DNA from: a virus
IMG/VR virus record: IMGVR_UViG_3300025000_000092
Location: 1 to 64,000 of that record
Length of the DNA: 64,000 nt
Strand: one strand, 5' to 3'
Shown here: in pieces, positions 16,562-23,588 of the stretch
How positions within the stretch are numbered: position 1 is the stretch's first letter
Layout of the letters: each line of letters starts with the position of its first letter
Notes under the pieces: generated by a model
The model's database searches: none
What the model was told of the DNA's origin: nothing
What the model saw: the letters and a program-made list of their open reading frames with translations, nothing else
Program-made: the position numbers and the translations under genes

Positions 16562-17431
16562 TCACAGCGCTCCGGTCCCGCGAGTGGCCAGCATTTCGCC
16601 CACAGCCTCGCGGTCCCCATCGCAAGAGATCCGTCGCGGCGCCTGCACCGTCTGGATCGCGAACCCGAGCCCCTCGTACAGCGCCAGGATCCGGGGCGTC
16701 GCCGCGTTGGACGTGACCACCGGACCGTCATGGCGGGCGAGCCAGGCCGCGAGGCGCTCCTGTGCGCACCAGTCGAATCCCCCGGCGGCGTAGTCGGTGA
16801 ACGTGCCGTCGTAGGGCGGGTCCGCGTACAGGTAGTCGCCGGGCAAAACCGGGACCGCAGAGAAGTCGCCGCACACGATCTCCCACCGCGACAGGACCGG
16901 CGCGTAGGCCGTGAAGTCGCGGCGGTAGTTGATGCTGGCGTACTTCCCGAACGGCACGTTGTACCCGCCGCTCCGGTTGAAGCGGCACAGCCCGTTGAAG
17001 CCGGTCCGGTTCAGGTAGTAGAACAGCCCCGCCGCTTCCGCCGACACGCCCGTCTGCAAGCGCAGGGCGTTGAACCGCTCCCGGTTGGCGTAGTAGGTCG
17101 TGGCGTCGTTCAGGAGCGGGACCGCGCCGGGGACCGTGAAGCCCAACGCCATGTGGCGGTACAGCCCGACGAGGTACGGGTTCGCGTCGTTCAGCAGGGC
17201 CCGCGACGGCTGCAACCCCAGGGCCACAGCCATTCCGCCCACGAAGGGCTCGACCAGCCGGCAATCCCGGTGCGGGGCGTAGAGGTCGCGCAGGGTCGGG
17301 ACCAGCCACCGCTTGCCGCCCGCCCACTTCAGGACAGGGTCGAGCGGGGCGGCTGGCGGCTGGTTGGCCGCTGGCCTGGGGGCGGGCGCTGCCACCGCGG
17401 GGACGCCGAAGAGGTCCATCTGGGCGTTCAT
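16562..17431 (-). CDS. dam: Dam-type adenine-N6 DNA methyltransferase
   Basis: Transfers a methyl group from SAM to adenine in DNA. The D12-class order is clear: KWAGGKRWLVP near residue 36 (SAM binding), EPFVGG near 62, LLNDANPYLVGLY, and the catalytic DPPYDGTF near 200. At 289 residues it has the usual length. The likely purpose is protection from host restriction or timing of phage promoters. No restriction partner is nearby. It overlaps the C5 methyltransferase upstream by four bases. Confidence 0.9.
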   Translation of the reverse strand: MNAQMDLFGVPAVAAPAPRPAANQPPAAPLDPVLKWAGGKRWLVPTLRDLYAPHRDCRLVEPFVGGMAVALGLQPSRALLNDANPYLVGLYRHMALGFTVPGAVPLLNDATTYYANRERFNALRLQTGVSAEAAGLFYYLNRTGFNGLCRFNRSGGYNVPFGKYASINYRRDFTAYAPVLSRWEIVCGDFSAVPVLPGDYLYADPPYDGTFTDYAAGGFDWCAQERLAAWLARHDGPVVTSNAATPRILALYEGLGFAIQTVQAPRRISCDGDREAVGEMLATRGTGAL

Positions 17432-18639
17432 GCGACCTCCATCGTGGTCCGGACCACGGCCTCAGCAACGTCCGGACACACCGCGTTTCCCAGCAGATCC
17501 ATGTACGCCCCTACAAATTCGGCAGCGAGCGGGGGAACAATGGCGTTTCCGGCTCCGCGCAGAACGCCCACGCGCTCGGCGGAAAGCCCATCAACCAGAG
17601 GGGAAAAAGCGGGTTCAAGCGGTACACGACGGGGCTTGCCGTCTGCGCATAGGACGGCGCCTGATAGCGCCCAGTGACCTGGTTTGTCAGGCTCGTTTGG
17701 CTCGGCCCGACCGCCGCTTCGCAGTCCGTCGCGTTCGGCGTCGCCCAGCCGGCTACAGCAAGAACCTGGAAGGACAGCGGGTTGCCCTTCGATCGAGCGG
17801 TCCGCGACTTGACCCATTCCTCCGACCCCGAATCGCTCCTCCAGTCCCGCGCCGCAGGGGTCGCCCAGCCGGTCATGGCTTCTATCAGCCCCGCACCCCG
17901 CTTCCCGTCGTTCGGCATTCTGCCCCGGTCCGCTTCCGAGACTGTCGGGGTCAACCATCCCGCCGTCAGGGCGAAGTCCTGTAGGTTCCGACGCGCGCCC
18001 TGCGTTCGTTCCAGCATCCCGCCTCGTTCCGCATTCGTAACTGCGGGCGTTGGCCATCCGACCAACCTCGCGGCACTCGTCAATGTGTCCGGTGCGCCCC
18101 GGTGCGCCCCCGTCGATTCCGAGTCCTCGGCTCGCGCTGTCGGCCACCCAGTAGAGCCGCTGTCGGATGTGCGGCGCCCCAATGCCCGCAGCGCACAGAT
18201 CGGCGGCCCCGAACCGATATCCCACTCCCGCCAGGTCAGCACGTACTCCGGCGAGCCAAAGGCGCCCATCCGCGCTCGCAACCTGCTCGCCAAAGACCGT
18301 TGCAGGTCGTCCGTCCCTGATGAGGCGAAAGAACTCGGGCCAGAGGTGCCGGGGGTCGTCTTCGCCCGCGCCCGCGCCCGCCACGCTGAAGGGCTGGCAG
18401 GGACAGGAACCGGTCCAGACGGGCCGGTCGTCGGGCCATTTCGCGAGTCGGAGGGCGTAGGACCAGCCGCCGATCCCGGCGAAGAAATGGGCTTGGGCGT
18501 ATCCTCGAACATCGTCAACTGTGACATCCGTGATGCTCCGTTCGTCAACGTCCCCGGCGGCAATCAGTCCCTCGCGCACCAGACCACGCAGCCACGCCGC
18601 AGCGAAGGGATCGTGCTCGTTGTAGTACGCGCCGATCAC
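17428..18639 (-). CDS. C5-cytosine DNA methyltransferase
   Basis: Methylates cytosine at C5 using SAM. FFAGIGGWSYALRLA is motif I, GSCPCQPFS holds the catalytic Cys (motif IV), FGEQV stands where motif VI normally reads ENV, RQRLYWVAD is motif VIII and GNAIVPPLAAEF is motif X. The start is GTG 18639, which overlaps the stop of the small gene upstream (GTGA) and gives YYNEHDP near the N-terminus as in phage homologues. The middle (residues 180-330) is low complexity, made of loosely repeated (A/G)D-x4-G units; there another long frame overlaps (17511-18527). Confidence 0.85.
   Translation of the reverse strand: MIGAYYNEHDPFAAAWLRGLVREGLIAAGDVDERSITDVTVDDVRGYAQAHFFAGIGGWSYALRLAKWPDDRPVWTGSCPCQPFSVAGAGAGEDDPRHLWPEFFRLIRDGRPATVFGEQVASADGRLWLAGVRADLAGVGYRFGAADLCAAGIGAPHIRQRLYWVADSASRGLGIDGGAPGRTGHIDECREVGRMANARSYECGTRRDAGTNAGRASEPTGLRPDGGMVDPDSLGSGPGQNAERREAGCGADRSHDRLGDPCGAGLEERFGVGGMGQVADRSIEGQPAVLPGSCCSRLGDAERDGLRSGGRAEPNEPDKPGHWALSGAVLCADGKPRRVPLEPAFSPLVDGLSAERVGVLRGAGNAIVPPLAAEFVGAYMDLLGNAVCPDVAEAVVRTTMEVA
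17511..18527 (-). CDS. overlapping frame inside C5 methyltransferase, GW-x-TP repeats
   Basis: A second frame on the same strand runs 338 codons, almost the whole length of the methyltransferase gene. It starts with an ATG (MSQLTMFEDTPKPI) that has GGAG eight bases upstream. Signs that it may be a protein: five units of the type GW(P/A/L)T(P/A) spaced through it (GWPTARAED, GWPTPAVTN, GWLTPTVSE, GWATPAARD, GWATPNATD), SRLRARMGAFGSPEYVLTW, and an ending NPLFPLWLMGFPPSAW. From memory, phage proteins with this layout are annotated in other genomes. It could also be a by-product of conserved coding in the other frame. Function unknown. Confidence 0.5.
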   Translation of the reverse strand: MSQLTMFEDTPKPISSPGSAAGPTPSDSRNGPTTGPSGPVPVPASPSAWRARARAKTTPGTSGPSSFASSGTDDLQRSLASRLRARMGAFGSPEYVLTWREWDIGSGPPICALRALGRRTSDSGSTGWPTARAEDSESTGAHRGAPDTLTSAARLVGWPTPAVTNAERGGMLERTQGARRNLQDFALTAGWLTPTVSEADRGRMPNDGKRGAGLIEAMTGWATPAARDWRSDSGSEEWVKSRTARSKGNPLSFQVLAVAGWATPNATDCEAAVGPSQTSLTNQVTGRYQAPSYAQTASPVVYRLNPLFPLWLMGFPPSAWAFCAEPETPLFPRSLPNL

Positions 18640-18815
18640 GACTGCACGCTCCGCCGCCCCCTCGCCATCATGCCCCGCACCCGCTTCGCCAGCTCCCGCC
18701 ACCCGTCGGGGCGGACGGCCTCCAGGACCCGCAGCACGTCGGCGCGGCGGTACACCGGGAAGACCGTCTCGTCGTCCGAGTGCGAACGTTTGAAGTAGGG
18801 GGCGCCGACACGCAC
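18636..18815 (-). CDS. small gene coupled to C5 methyltransferase, frame broken at its start
   Basis: This frame encodes GVRVGAPYFKRSHSDDETVF and on to ARGRRSVQS, ends with TGA overlapping the methyltransferase start, and looks like genuine protein. Its only in-frame start is GTG 18815 without a ribosome binding site. An ATG at 18871 with GAGGAG upstream reads MPAMTKTPFK in another frame and would continue into this one if a single base were added near 18848. I therefore think the real gene is 18636-18871 with a one-base deletion, either in the phage or in the sequence. Helical C-terminus (DVLRVLEAV); family unknown. Confidence 0.5.
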   Translation of the reverse strand: MRVGAPYFKRSHSDDETVFPVYRRADVLRVLEAVRPDGWRELAKRVRGMMARGRRSVQS

Positions 18816-20674: not shown

Positions 20675-21346
20675 CTACACCTCCAGGTCCGGGAGGATCC
20701 CGGCGTCCATCAGTTCGACCTCGGCCGTACGTGCCAGGGTCTTCGCGTCCTCGCCCTGGTACGTGTCCATGAGCTCCGCGGCCTGGGTCAGGATGACCAG
20801 CGGGGACAGCGCCATGGCGTCCGAAAGGCGGGTGAGCCCCTCGCCCGGGGCGGCGTCGTACGCGCCCATGTGGAAGCGGATCGCCATGGCCTCGGCCGGG
20901 ACCAGGTCGCCGAGGATGCGCATCGCCAGGAACAAGGACGTGTCGCCGTGCCCCAGGACCAAGTCCTTCGCGGGGGCGTATTCGAAGCCGGGGACAGGAT
21001 CCCAGATGACCTTCCCGTTGTAGTCGGTGGCGTACCGTTGACCGTCCTGGGTCTTCCGCTTCTCCGACTTCACGGTCTGCTGGTACCGCCCGACCTTGCA
21101 GAGGTCGTGGCACAGCGCGATGCGCGCCAGCGGCGCCGCGTCGGCGGCCTGGAACCCGCAGAACGACAGCCGCCGGAGGTAAAGGAACACCCCCAGGCAG
21201 TGGTCGGCGAGCCCGCCCGCGTAGCAGCGGTGGAACCGGGTGCTGGCCGGGTCCTGGCAGAACGAAGTCCCCGCTAGGTGCGCGGCCAGGTCCCCCAACG
21301 GGTCGGCCACGTGGGCCAGCCGATGAATGATCTCGCGACTCGTCAT
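20675..21346 (-). CDS. HD-domain phosphohydrolase
   Basis: A 223-residue HD-superfamily protein: H39, ADH at 47-49, the metal-binding HD at 80-81 (ALCHDLCKVGRY), LGHGDTSLFLA and a distal helix with a conserved Asp (AAELMDTYQ). Such proteins hydrolyse phosphate esters, commonly of nucleotides or nucleic acid ends. The 'H..HD..K' pattern is complete, so it should be active. It is coupled to the helicase gene by a four-base overlap, which suggests a shared role in DNA or nucleotide metabolism in infection. Confidence 0.75.
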   Translation of the reverse strand: MTSREIIHRLAHVADPLGDLAAHLAGTSFCQDPASTRFHRCYAGGLADHCLGVFLYLRRLSFCGFQAADAAPLARIALCHDLCKVGRYQQTVKSEKRKTQDGQRYATDYNGKVIWDPVPGFEYAPAKDLVLGHGDTSLFLAMRILGDLVPAEAMAIRFHMGAYDAAPGEGLTRLSDAMALSPLVILTQAAELMDTYQGEDAKTLARTAEVELMDAGILPDLEV

Positions 21347-22824
21347 GCTGTCCTCCCGAGCGGCAGCTCGCTGGCCCCGCCCTTCCTCTCGAACGTCCGG
21401 TACACCCGGTCCCGCTCCGCGCCGTGGTAGCGGAGGAGCGGCACCCCGTCGTCCCTGAAATCCACCATCCGGCCGCGTACCTTGCCCTTGGAGGGGCGAA
21501 GCACGCGGCCGAGGACTTGGGTCGTCTCGGTCTTGTTTCCGCCGGCCACCGTCCAGAAGACGGTGTCGATCGTCGGCAGGTCGAATCCCTCGCCGACGAG
21601 GCTGGGAGTGGACACCAAAACCGGGAGGGTCCCGGCCTTCAGCGCCCCGAGGATCTCCACCCGCTTCCGCTGCGGGATGTCGCCGGTCAGGAATTCAGCC
21701 CGCAGCCCCCGGCCGCTCAGCGCCGCAGCCAGCGCCTTGGCGTGGCCGACGCGCTTGGACAGGACCAGGGACAGCCCGCTGTGCATGTCCAGGATCGTGT
21801 CGACGAGGAACTGGTTGCGCTCCGGGTCCTCGACGAGCATCCCGATCAGCTTCGTGTGGTCGACGGAATCCCGGACCTGCTGGCCCGCCTGCTTCAGGAG
21901 GTGGGCCTGGTAGGGAGACTTCTTCTGCATCGGAATCGCCCGGGGCGTCCAGCCGGTCTGCACGCGCACGATTTCGGCGGGGACGATGGAGCCGAGGTCG
22001 ATCATCACGTCGGCGTTGATGCTGTGAACGATCGGGCCGATCACGTCAAAGAGCATCTGCTCCATGCCGTCGGCGCGCGTCGGGGTAGCCGTGAGGCCCA
22101 CCCGGTACCGGGCCGGGAAGCTGCCGAGCATGGACCGGAACGAATCGGCGGGGCAGTGGTGCGCCTCGTCCAGGATCACCAGGCCGAAACGCCTCGTCAG
22201 GTCGCGGAGCGCTAGAGCACTCATGGCCGAGAGGGACTGGACCATCGCGATCGTCACGTCCTTGACGACGCACACCCCGTTCCCAATGACTCCCGGAGAG
22301 ATCCCCAACATCGCCCGCATGCTCGCCGCGGTCTGATCGACGAGAACCTGGCGATGCACCAGGAACAGAGCGGGGGTGTTCATCGCCGCGATGATCCCGA
22401 GACCGATGACCGTCTTCCCAGACCCGGTCGGCGCCTGGATGACCCCCTGCTCCTCGTCTTCGATGGTCGAGACGGCGGCGCGCTGGTAGGGGCGGAGCTT
22501 GAACGTCGGGGCCAGCGTCACGGTCATCGGCGGGCAGATCCGGGCGTCCCGCAGCTGGGGCCGAAGGCGGTCTTCAACCTCCGCCAGCAGCCCGCGGGGG
22601 AGGGTCAACGCCTCGTTGCCGAGGCCGTCGTCGGCGAGGCGCCAGAGCCGGAGCTTTTCCGGAATGCCCTCGGGATTTGCTCTGCTGGGCTGTGTCGGCC
22701 TACCCGACCGCCGGGCCTCGGCGTACTCCGGATTCGCGTACGTACACCGGTTCTGCCAGGCGCGGACCTGGTCCGGGGACGCCCCGATAACCAGCAGATC
22801 GGTGCCCACGTAGACGGTTGCCAT
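21343..22824 (-). CDS. SF2 DEAH-box DNA helicase (XPB/UvsW-like)
   Basis: ATP-driven helicase of 493 residues, starting at ATG 22824. Motif I APTGSGKT (131-138), Ia LVHRQVLVDQ, motif II DEAH (219-222), motif III GLTATPTR, motif V GEGFDLPTID and motif VI QVLGRVLRPSKGK are all present and in order. The layout resembles UvsW/XPB-like helicases that remodel recombination and replication intermediates. The first 100 residues are a small extra domain. It sits in one block with the HD protein and SbcCD. Confidence 0.85.
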   Translation of the reverse strand: MATVYVGTDLLVIGASPDQVRAWQNRCTYANPEYAEARRSGRPTQPSRANPEGIPEKLRLWRLADDGLGNEALTLPRGLLAEVEDRLRPQLRDARICPPMTVTLAPTFKLRPYQRAAVSTIEDEEQGVIQAPTGSGKTVIGLGIIAAMNTPALFLVHRQVLVDQTAASMRAMLGISPGVIGNGVCVVKDVTIAMVQSLSAMSALALRDLTRRFGLVILDEAHHCPADSFRSMLGSFPARYRVGLTATPTRADGMEQMLFDVIGPIVHSINADVMIDLGSIVPAEIVRVQTGWTPRAIPMQKKSPYQAHLLKQAGQQVRDSVDHTKLIGMLVEDPERNQFLVDTILDMHSGLSLVLSKRVGHAKALAAALSGRGLRAEFLTGDIPQRKRVEILGALKAGTLPVLVSTPSLVGEGFDLPTIDTVFWTVAGGNKTETTQVLGRVLRPSKGKVRGRMVDFRDDGVPLLRYHGAERDRVYRTFERKGGASELPLGRTA

Positions 22825-23588
22825 CACGCCCTCGCCTTCGCGGCCTGGGTCTCGCGCTCGGCCTTCAGCTTCCGCTTCTGGTACCCGCTCAGGGGCTTCT
22901 TCTTCGTGGGGACCGGGCAGCCGTCCGGACGCGTGGTGAACGCCGACTCCGCGCAGTTCAGCCCCTTGGCGTCGCAGTCCTTGCACGCATGCTTCGCCTT
23001 CGCGGCCTTCCGCTTCGCCAGCAGTTCCTTCGCCAGTTCCTCGCCGCGTCGGCCGACCGCCTCGGGGTCATAGCCGGCGGCCCGCAGCTCGGCGCGGACC
23101 TGCTCGATGGGGGTGTCGGGGTTCAGCGGACCGCCCGGGCAGGTGTCGCAGTGGTCGGCGGCGCAGTCGGCGCAGGACGTGGGCGCAGGCGGGCATGCGG
23201 CCCCGGCCTCGCGGGTGCCTTCGATGCAGGTCGGGGAGTCGTCGCAGGTCCCGCAGTCGGCCTGGTCCTGGGTCTCGCCCGGAAGCCCGACGGGAGGCTC
23301 GCGGCCCAACTCCGGGCTGCGGTCGTCCCGGGGGAGCGAAGCCGGCAGGTACACCGACGACAGCATCACGCCATCAACGGTCTTCTCCGCTCGGATGCGC
23401 GGCGGGTTCCGCAGGTCCGCGGGCGTCAGGTGGACGGTCCCGCCGACCCGGTCCACGACGGCCCGCAGCAGCAGGTCCGCCATCTCCAGATAGGCGATTC
23501 GCTTCCGCATGCCCTGGATCTCTTCGATCTGCGGCAGCTTCTCCCGGGCGATCTTCTGTGCGCGCTTCCGATTCACCGTGTCCTCCAT
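22824..23588 (-). CDS. hypothetical protein with cysteine-rich centre
   Basis: A 254-residue protein. The N-terminal third is helical and basic (NRKRAQKIAREKLPQIEEIQ) and continues into a strand region (GGTVHLTPADL). The centre has a dozen Cys in pairs (CGTCDD, CADCAADHCDTC), and the C-terminal third is highly basic with CKDCDAKGLNC. It may bind zinc and nucleic acids. Its stop shares a base with the helicase start, so they are translated together. Confidence 0.65.
   Translation of the reverse strand: MEDTVNRKRAQKIAREKLPQIEEIQGMRKRIAYLEMADLLLRAVVDRVGGTVHLTPADLRNPPRIRAEKTVDGVMLSSVYLPASLPRDDRSPELGREPPVGLPGETQDQADCGTCDDSPTCIEGTREAGAACPPAPTSCADCAADHCDTCPGGPLNPDTPIEQVRAELRAAGYDPEAVGRRGEELAKELLAKRKAAKAKHACKDCDAKGLNCAESAFTTRPDGCPVPTKKKPLSGYQKRKLKAERETQAAKARA

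Follow-up and report, generated by a model that had tools for sequence, protein, structure and literature searches.

Two overlapping genes that together specify a C5-cytosine methyltransferase are reportedly known from M.EcoHK31I: Lee et al. are said to have found in 1995 that the gene of the large polypeptide contains, in another frame, the coding sequence of the small one, and that both are needed in vitro. In this two-polypeptide enzyme (YGGCCR), the larger subunit carries motifs I-VIII and X together with a predicted recognition domain, and the smaller one carries motif IX (PMC3404938). M.AquI, a two-subunit C5 methyltransferase, places motifs IX and X together on its smaller subunit (PMC3404938). 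C5 methyltransferases usually hold the recognition domain and motif IX between motifs VIII and X (PMC3404938). In phages, a second protein in another frame inside a DNA methylase gene is represented by ShiLan, a mobile insertion with sporadic distribution and an HNH nuclease.

The locus described here lies on the minus strand of a viral sequence of 64,000 nucleotides (IMG/VR record IMGVR_UViG_3300025000_000092, positions 1 to 64,000), referred to below as the window. Two reading frames overlap there: frame A, that of the C5 methyltransferase, and frame 2, which is +1 relative to it. Together, the two overlapping frames of this single DNA segment probably encode a two-subunit C5-cytosine methyltransferase. 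As in M.EcoHK31I, motifs I-VIII and X fall to one frame (frame A) and a motif IX-like segment to the other (frame 2), the likeness being one of motif layout. As in systems of that type, the second polypeptide would be read in another frame inside the first gene, here through a 338-codon +1 overlap that is under selection in homologues. Unlike M.EcoHK31I, the candidate recognition cassette lies in frame 2, which has W-x-T-P repeats and is found across several phyla, in prophages as well as phages. The beta subunit of M.EcoHK31I is reportedly shorter than frame 2, which has 338 codons here and up to 509 in relatives. The separation of catalytic motifs and recognition end onto two polypeptides is shared with M.AquI; unlike in M.AquI, motif X stays with the core, in frame A rather than frame 2. 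Unlike the ShiLan insertion, frame 2 lacks a nuclease domain, lies across the methyltransferase domain itself and is found almost throughout the family. A hidden HNH endonuclease of the ShiLan type was rejected, as no HNH family was found for frame 2 or any of 92 relatives.

A two-frame C5 methyltransferase in phages is apparently unreported. The literature yielded no report of an overlapping or dual-coded phage methyltransferase pair, an absence that weighs little because subscription journals were thinly covered. The GenBank records GU196280 and MT711528 (K1ind2, fTaEco03) annotate both overlapping ORFs without comment. In the PHROG library, families 363 and 1008 are both labelled DNA methyltransferase and correspond to frame A and frame 2 respectively; they are kept separate with their overlap unrecorded, whereas here they are two frames of one DNA stretch.

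Layout of the two frames

Frame A (17428-18702, minus strand) is open up to a GTG at 18702. Judged by sequence, its start is most likely the GTG at 18639, which has GGAG 9 bases upstream and gives a coding region of 17428-18639. The preliminary description had called this frame a good member of the methyltransferase family, an assignment now borne out by matches to PF00145 (E 5e-14, above the cut-off) and PHROG_363 (E 3e-72). Catalytic motifs I, IV, VI and VIII are all present: FFAGIGGW (18463-18486), GSCPCQPFS with its PCQ (18385-18411), FGEQV, in which GEQV is a variant of ENV, and PHIRQRLYWVA with its QRLYWVA (18142-18174). The core matches M.HhaI in a PDB profile search. Motif X, GAGNAIVPP (17530-17556), lies in a stretch under selection downstream of the frame 2 repeats. 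The structural model shows a confident catalytic core, with pLDDT about 85-96 over most of residues 1-170, followed by a disordered segment (residues 174-327, pLDDT below 50 nearly throughout) and a C-terminal helix. Foldseek searches with this model returned M.HhaI and M.HaeIII as the best PDB matches, over about 170-190 columns, mainly in the core. Frame A thus reads as the catalytic, alpha-like subunit of a C5-cytosine methyltransferase. The model contains no folded recognition domain, and a target-recognition domain with motif IX in the same chain is not found in frame A, where the part from motif VIII towards the 3' end is unconstrained and disordered.

Frame 2 (17511-18527) begins with the ATG at 18527 and comprises 338 codons, its stop lying at 17513-17511. 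A Shine-Dalgarno-like GGAG (18536-18539) stands 8 bases before the ATG, within frame A codons, in the context CGGAG-CATCACGG-ATG; the sequence here agrees with the start, spacing and length given in the preliminary description. That description had also noted five regular GW(P/A/L)T(P/A) units and a WLMGFPP end, and both are found. The repeats (17736-18149) start at 18149, 18059, 17960, 17870 and 17750, which correspond to residues 127, 157, 190, 220 and 260 and a spacing of 30-40 residues. Upstream of them, a conserved helix, SLASRLRARMGAFGSPEYVLTWREW (18222-18296), is marked by omega values, model and permutation scores and falls inside a stretch selected in both frames. Near the end, LNPLFPLWLMGFPPSAW (17568-17618) forms a motif IX-like segment, as suggested by selection and by alignment with single-chain enzymes; frame A reads EPAFSPLVDGLSAERVGVL from the same bases.

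The gene neighborhood includes a D12-class N6-adenine methyltransferase (16562-17431, minus strand; PF02086, E 7e-36). Its ATG overlaps the stop codon of frame A (ATGA), so that the phage has adenine and cytosine methyltransferases in tandem. A ResIII/DEAD-type helicase (PF04851, E 3e-26) is encoded at 21343-22986, also on the minus strand.

Conservation and selection along the overlap

The window has a GC content of 70%, and chance long ORFs are common there, so the length of frame 2 by itself proves little. Permutation gives a more informative picture. Synonymous recoding of the methyltransferase introduces a mean of 3.6 stops into frame 2, and 0.5% of permutations preserve it as an open frame. 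The match of frame 2 to its family profile reaches 265 bits, against 96 +/- 14 (maximum 136) when frame A is synonymously permuted 200 times, a lead of about 12 standard deviations; the window was excluded from the profiles used in these tests. Conversely, frame A scores 410 bits against its family profile, and synonymous permutation of frame 2 yields 127 +/- 19. The signal is found in the repeats (65 bits, permuted mean 7), where the family profile of frame A gives the corresponding spacer -0.3 bits, and also in residues 58-125 of frame 2 (87 bits against 30 +/- 11 when permuted). Frame 2 is very probably a real gene.

The two-frame arrangement recurs in hundreds of phages and prophages. Of 80 viral contigs retrieved with the frame A protein of the window, 79 have a +1 frame that stays open inside frame A over 237 codons or more; the exception (L048) has a stop in frame A and an intact frame 2. 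A second viral set, 80 contigs retrieved with the frame A protein of epsilon15, has a GC content of 56-61% and a +1 frame of at least 276 codons in 79 cases, the remaining one (L133) having 187. Overall, nearly all 160 loci retrieved by frame A have an open +1 frame of about 240-380 codons, against merely 31-151 codons for the +2 frame in both sets. A reverse set of 80 loci from bacterial genomes of several phyla was retrieved with frame 2 alone, and every one of these loci contains the methyltransferase frame. Seventy-five of them have a single ORF per frame, all in the +1 relation, and 72 are complete at both ends. A standalone frame 2 without a methyltransferase was not found in these 80 genome loci; apparent standalone cases, such as L019, L025 and L029, proved to be diverged, truncated or frame-shifted relatives. 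A distant second subfamily displays the +1 overlap in 75 of 80 loci, with 360-490 codons among the loci listed. Both N15 (gp58) and epsilon15 carry the dual-frame arrangement, and one contig (L245:2392-4224) apparently has two tandem copies of the dual-coded locus.

In two different contigs (L014:2596-2598 and L048:2795-2797), one conserved tryptophan codon of frame A (RHL*PxF) is replaced by a stop, TGA or TAG, and frame 2 is unbroken in both. This shared site may reflect coincidence, a deamination hotspot, or a frame 2 that is kept after catalysis has been lost.

Initiation signals of frame 2 were compared across 75 clusters defined at 85% identity. At the site homologous to ATG 18527, a Shine-Dalgarno sequence occurs in 24 of the 42 clusters with the ATG and in 0 of the 33 without it (Fisher p 2e-8), compared with 30 of 555 internal frame 2 ATGs. 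Ten of the 33 clusters that do not have this ATG contain an alternative ATG 18 bases upstream with its own Shine-Dalgarno. Across these clusters, the frame 2 ATG and its putative ribosome-binding sequence co-vary.

Selection was assessed from substitutions between close homologues, each classified as synonymous (S) or not (N) in either frame, with the frame A letter written first. These tests draw on homologues in general; relatives of the window are only about 50% identical in frame A, and near relatives of the window itself were not found. In 40 independent pairs, frame A is constrained before the overlap (NN/SN 0.13) and frame 2 is not (NN/NS 1.14); after the overlap, the values are 0.21 and 1.15. 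The first 45 or so codons of frame 2 (omega 0.90) display no clear amino acid constraint, and nonsense changes alone look depleted. Both frames are constrained in the motif VIII region (frame A 0.31; frame 2 omega 0.50, interval 0.36-0.64) and over the final 50 codons (0.26 and 0.35). Across the repeats, constraint is seen in frame 2 (0.41), with frame A neutral (1.01, 95% interval 0.90-1.12). A retest on 21 pairs with truly orthologous repeat cassettes gave a frame 2 omega of 0.09 (0.05-0.14) and frame A values of 1.16 (0.59-2.64; NN/SN) or 0.81 (NS/SS). The fastest position in the repeats is position 1 of frame A, which is the wobble position of frame 2. The distant subfamily, represented by only 8 pairs, follows the same order of selection.

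Because frame A is neutral and frame 2 constrained in the repeats, the (A/G)D-x4-G repeats of frame A are the shadow, not the GWxTP units. The two patterns do mirror each other, as had been proposed, with the frame A repeats as an unselected by-product. The earlier proposal of a 338-codon dual-coding region holds for the open frames, which extend throughout, and falls short for selection: by substitution pattern, dual selection within the overlap is confined to the motif VIII region and the last 50 or so codons, towards its ends. Neither stop codons nor free synonymous drift, which would have marked frame 2 as non-coding, were seen in close relatives of homologues. The proposal that both frames are coding gains strong support from comparative evidence, namely open frames, selection, start signals and permutation.

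Single-chain relatives and cassette exchange

Frame 2 matches PHROG_1008 (E 4e-19). It has no Pfam family, and its profile found no match in the PDB. A clearer view of its identity comes from actinophages, where C5 methyltransferases occur as single chains. In profile comparisons, the C-terminal half of these enzymes is matched by frame 2 (97% probability, E 1.2e-10; in a second comparison, columns 227-379, E 1.5e-9) and the N-terminal half by frame A (columns 31-194, E 3.9e-17). What frame A lacks is therefore present in frame 2. The matched C-terminal half consists of PTP repeats and a motif IX-like segment, and the end of frame 2 aligns with the in-frame RLxxxFxEWMMGWPAGW that precedes motif X in single-chain enzymes. 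In actinophage RitaG, for example, LLPTP repeats and RLTAAFPEWMMGWPAGW lie between motifs VIII and X in the same frame. The WMMG segment falls on motif IX of M.HhaI in a colinear alignment that is non-significant by itself.

Among 64 classifiable actinophage loci, 50 or 51 are fused, a single frame holding PTP repeats, WMMG and motif X, and 12 have the repeats, IX and X on a separate ORF in the +1 frame. The annotated 'DNA methylase' pairs Arturo gp76/gp75 (L398), RedFox gp42/gp43 (L399) and Getalong gp85/gp86 (L400) each divide one enzyme between two genes. For Arturo and RedFox, the later half is in the +1 frame, a layout like that of M.AquI. Two distant relatives (L044:116-1812 and L029:1945-3436) indicate that PTP repeats move between frames; in L044, they follow the core in its own frame, and some are in the frame of motif X.

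An AlphaFold2 model of frame 2 alone is mostly disordered (mean pLDDT 52.6) and contains no folded recognition domain; its most confident helix is the conserved helix at 18222-18296. Based on this model, the product could be one that folds on its partner only.

Near-identical cores are often paired with unrelated repeat regions and near-identical ends. In one such pair (L118/L120), identity is 99.7% in the core, 55% in the repeats and 96% at the end. Cassette exchange is typical of target-recognition regions in multispecific and phage C5 methyltransferases. The location of the repeats, their homology and their exchange make target reading their most likely function. There is about an even chance that the W-x-T-P repeats, present in 1-6 units per protein, constitute an undescribed target-recognition module that is supplied in trans from an overlapping frame and swapped between phages.

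Frame A is interrupted within the spacer in three relatives (L366, L374 and L377). In L374 (1958-3526), the one of the three read over its whole length, it is naturally split into one ORF with motifs I-VIII and another with motif X, which restarts at a new ATG preceded by GAGG, and a frame 2 of 509 codons runs through unbroken. A split frame A beside a continuous frame 2 indicates that the spacer itself is dispensable.

Proposed enzyme and rival readings

In the proposed enzyme, frame A would provide the catalytic (large) domain with motifs I-VIII and X, joined by an unconstrained linker of about 140 residues that would exist only because frame A must stay open across frame 2. Frame 2, with its own Shine-Dalgarno and ATG, would provide the small-domain half: the W-x-T-P cassette, likely specifying the target sequence, and the motif IX-like LNPxFxxWLMGxPxxW segment. 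Both products would then assemble into an active enzyme. Specificity may evolve through swaps of the frame 2 cassette, and frame A would tolerate the resulting shadow peptide. Translation, subunit assembly with heterodimer activity, and target reading by the cassette are predicted features of this scheme.

Frame 2 might instead be translated into a separate protein, such as a methyltransferase regulator or inhibitor or an anti-defence factor, that merely overlaps the enzyme gene. Its predicted disorder, short conserved motifs and lack of a Pfam family fit such a product, as does the intact frame 2 in the two contigs with a frame A stop codon. This reading is nonetheless unlikely, given the homology between frame 2 and the C-terminal half of single-chain methyltransferases, its constant pairing with the methyltransferase frame in the 80 genome loci, and its swapped cassette at a position typical of target-recognition domains. 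Alternatively, a +1 ribosomal shift after motif VIII could join core, repeats and motif IX into one chain, leaving frame 2 without an independent start. Core and repeats do form one chain in actinophages, and PTP repeats lie in the frame of the core in L044. Such a shift is highly improbable in view of the selection on frame 2 upstream of the repeats (omega in the motif VIII region and the score of residues 58-125), its co-varying Shine-Dalgarno and ATG, and the selection on frame A downstream of the repeats, motif X included.

The least credible reading treats frame 2 as the coding shadow of a GC-rich methyltransferase gene. The abundance of chance ORFs in the window speaks for it, but the +1 frame is kept at 53-60% GC too, frame 2 is under strong constraint in repeats where frame A is neutral, its permutation score is far outside expectation (z about 12), and its initiation signals co-vary. 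Selection and permutation tests led us to reject it on evolutionary grounds.

If the two-subunit enzyme is real, the 'DNA cytosine methyltransferases' that abound in phages and prophages are a misannotated class in which each gene is two. The odd, low-complexity VADxxxxG stretch would result from the other frame, and what determines specificity would have gone unnoticed. The locus would also be among the better documented long same-strand overlaps of double-stranded DNA phages. Its frame boundary would track the boundary between the large and small domains of the enzyme, so that specificity could be swapped with catalysis unbroken. Since N15 gp58 and epsilon15 carry the arrangement, dual coding is testable in laboratory systems. 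If the repeats are a target-recognition module, one DNA stretch would, in this family, evolve its specificity through one frame under a neutral reading of the other.
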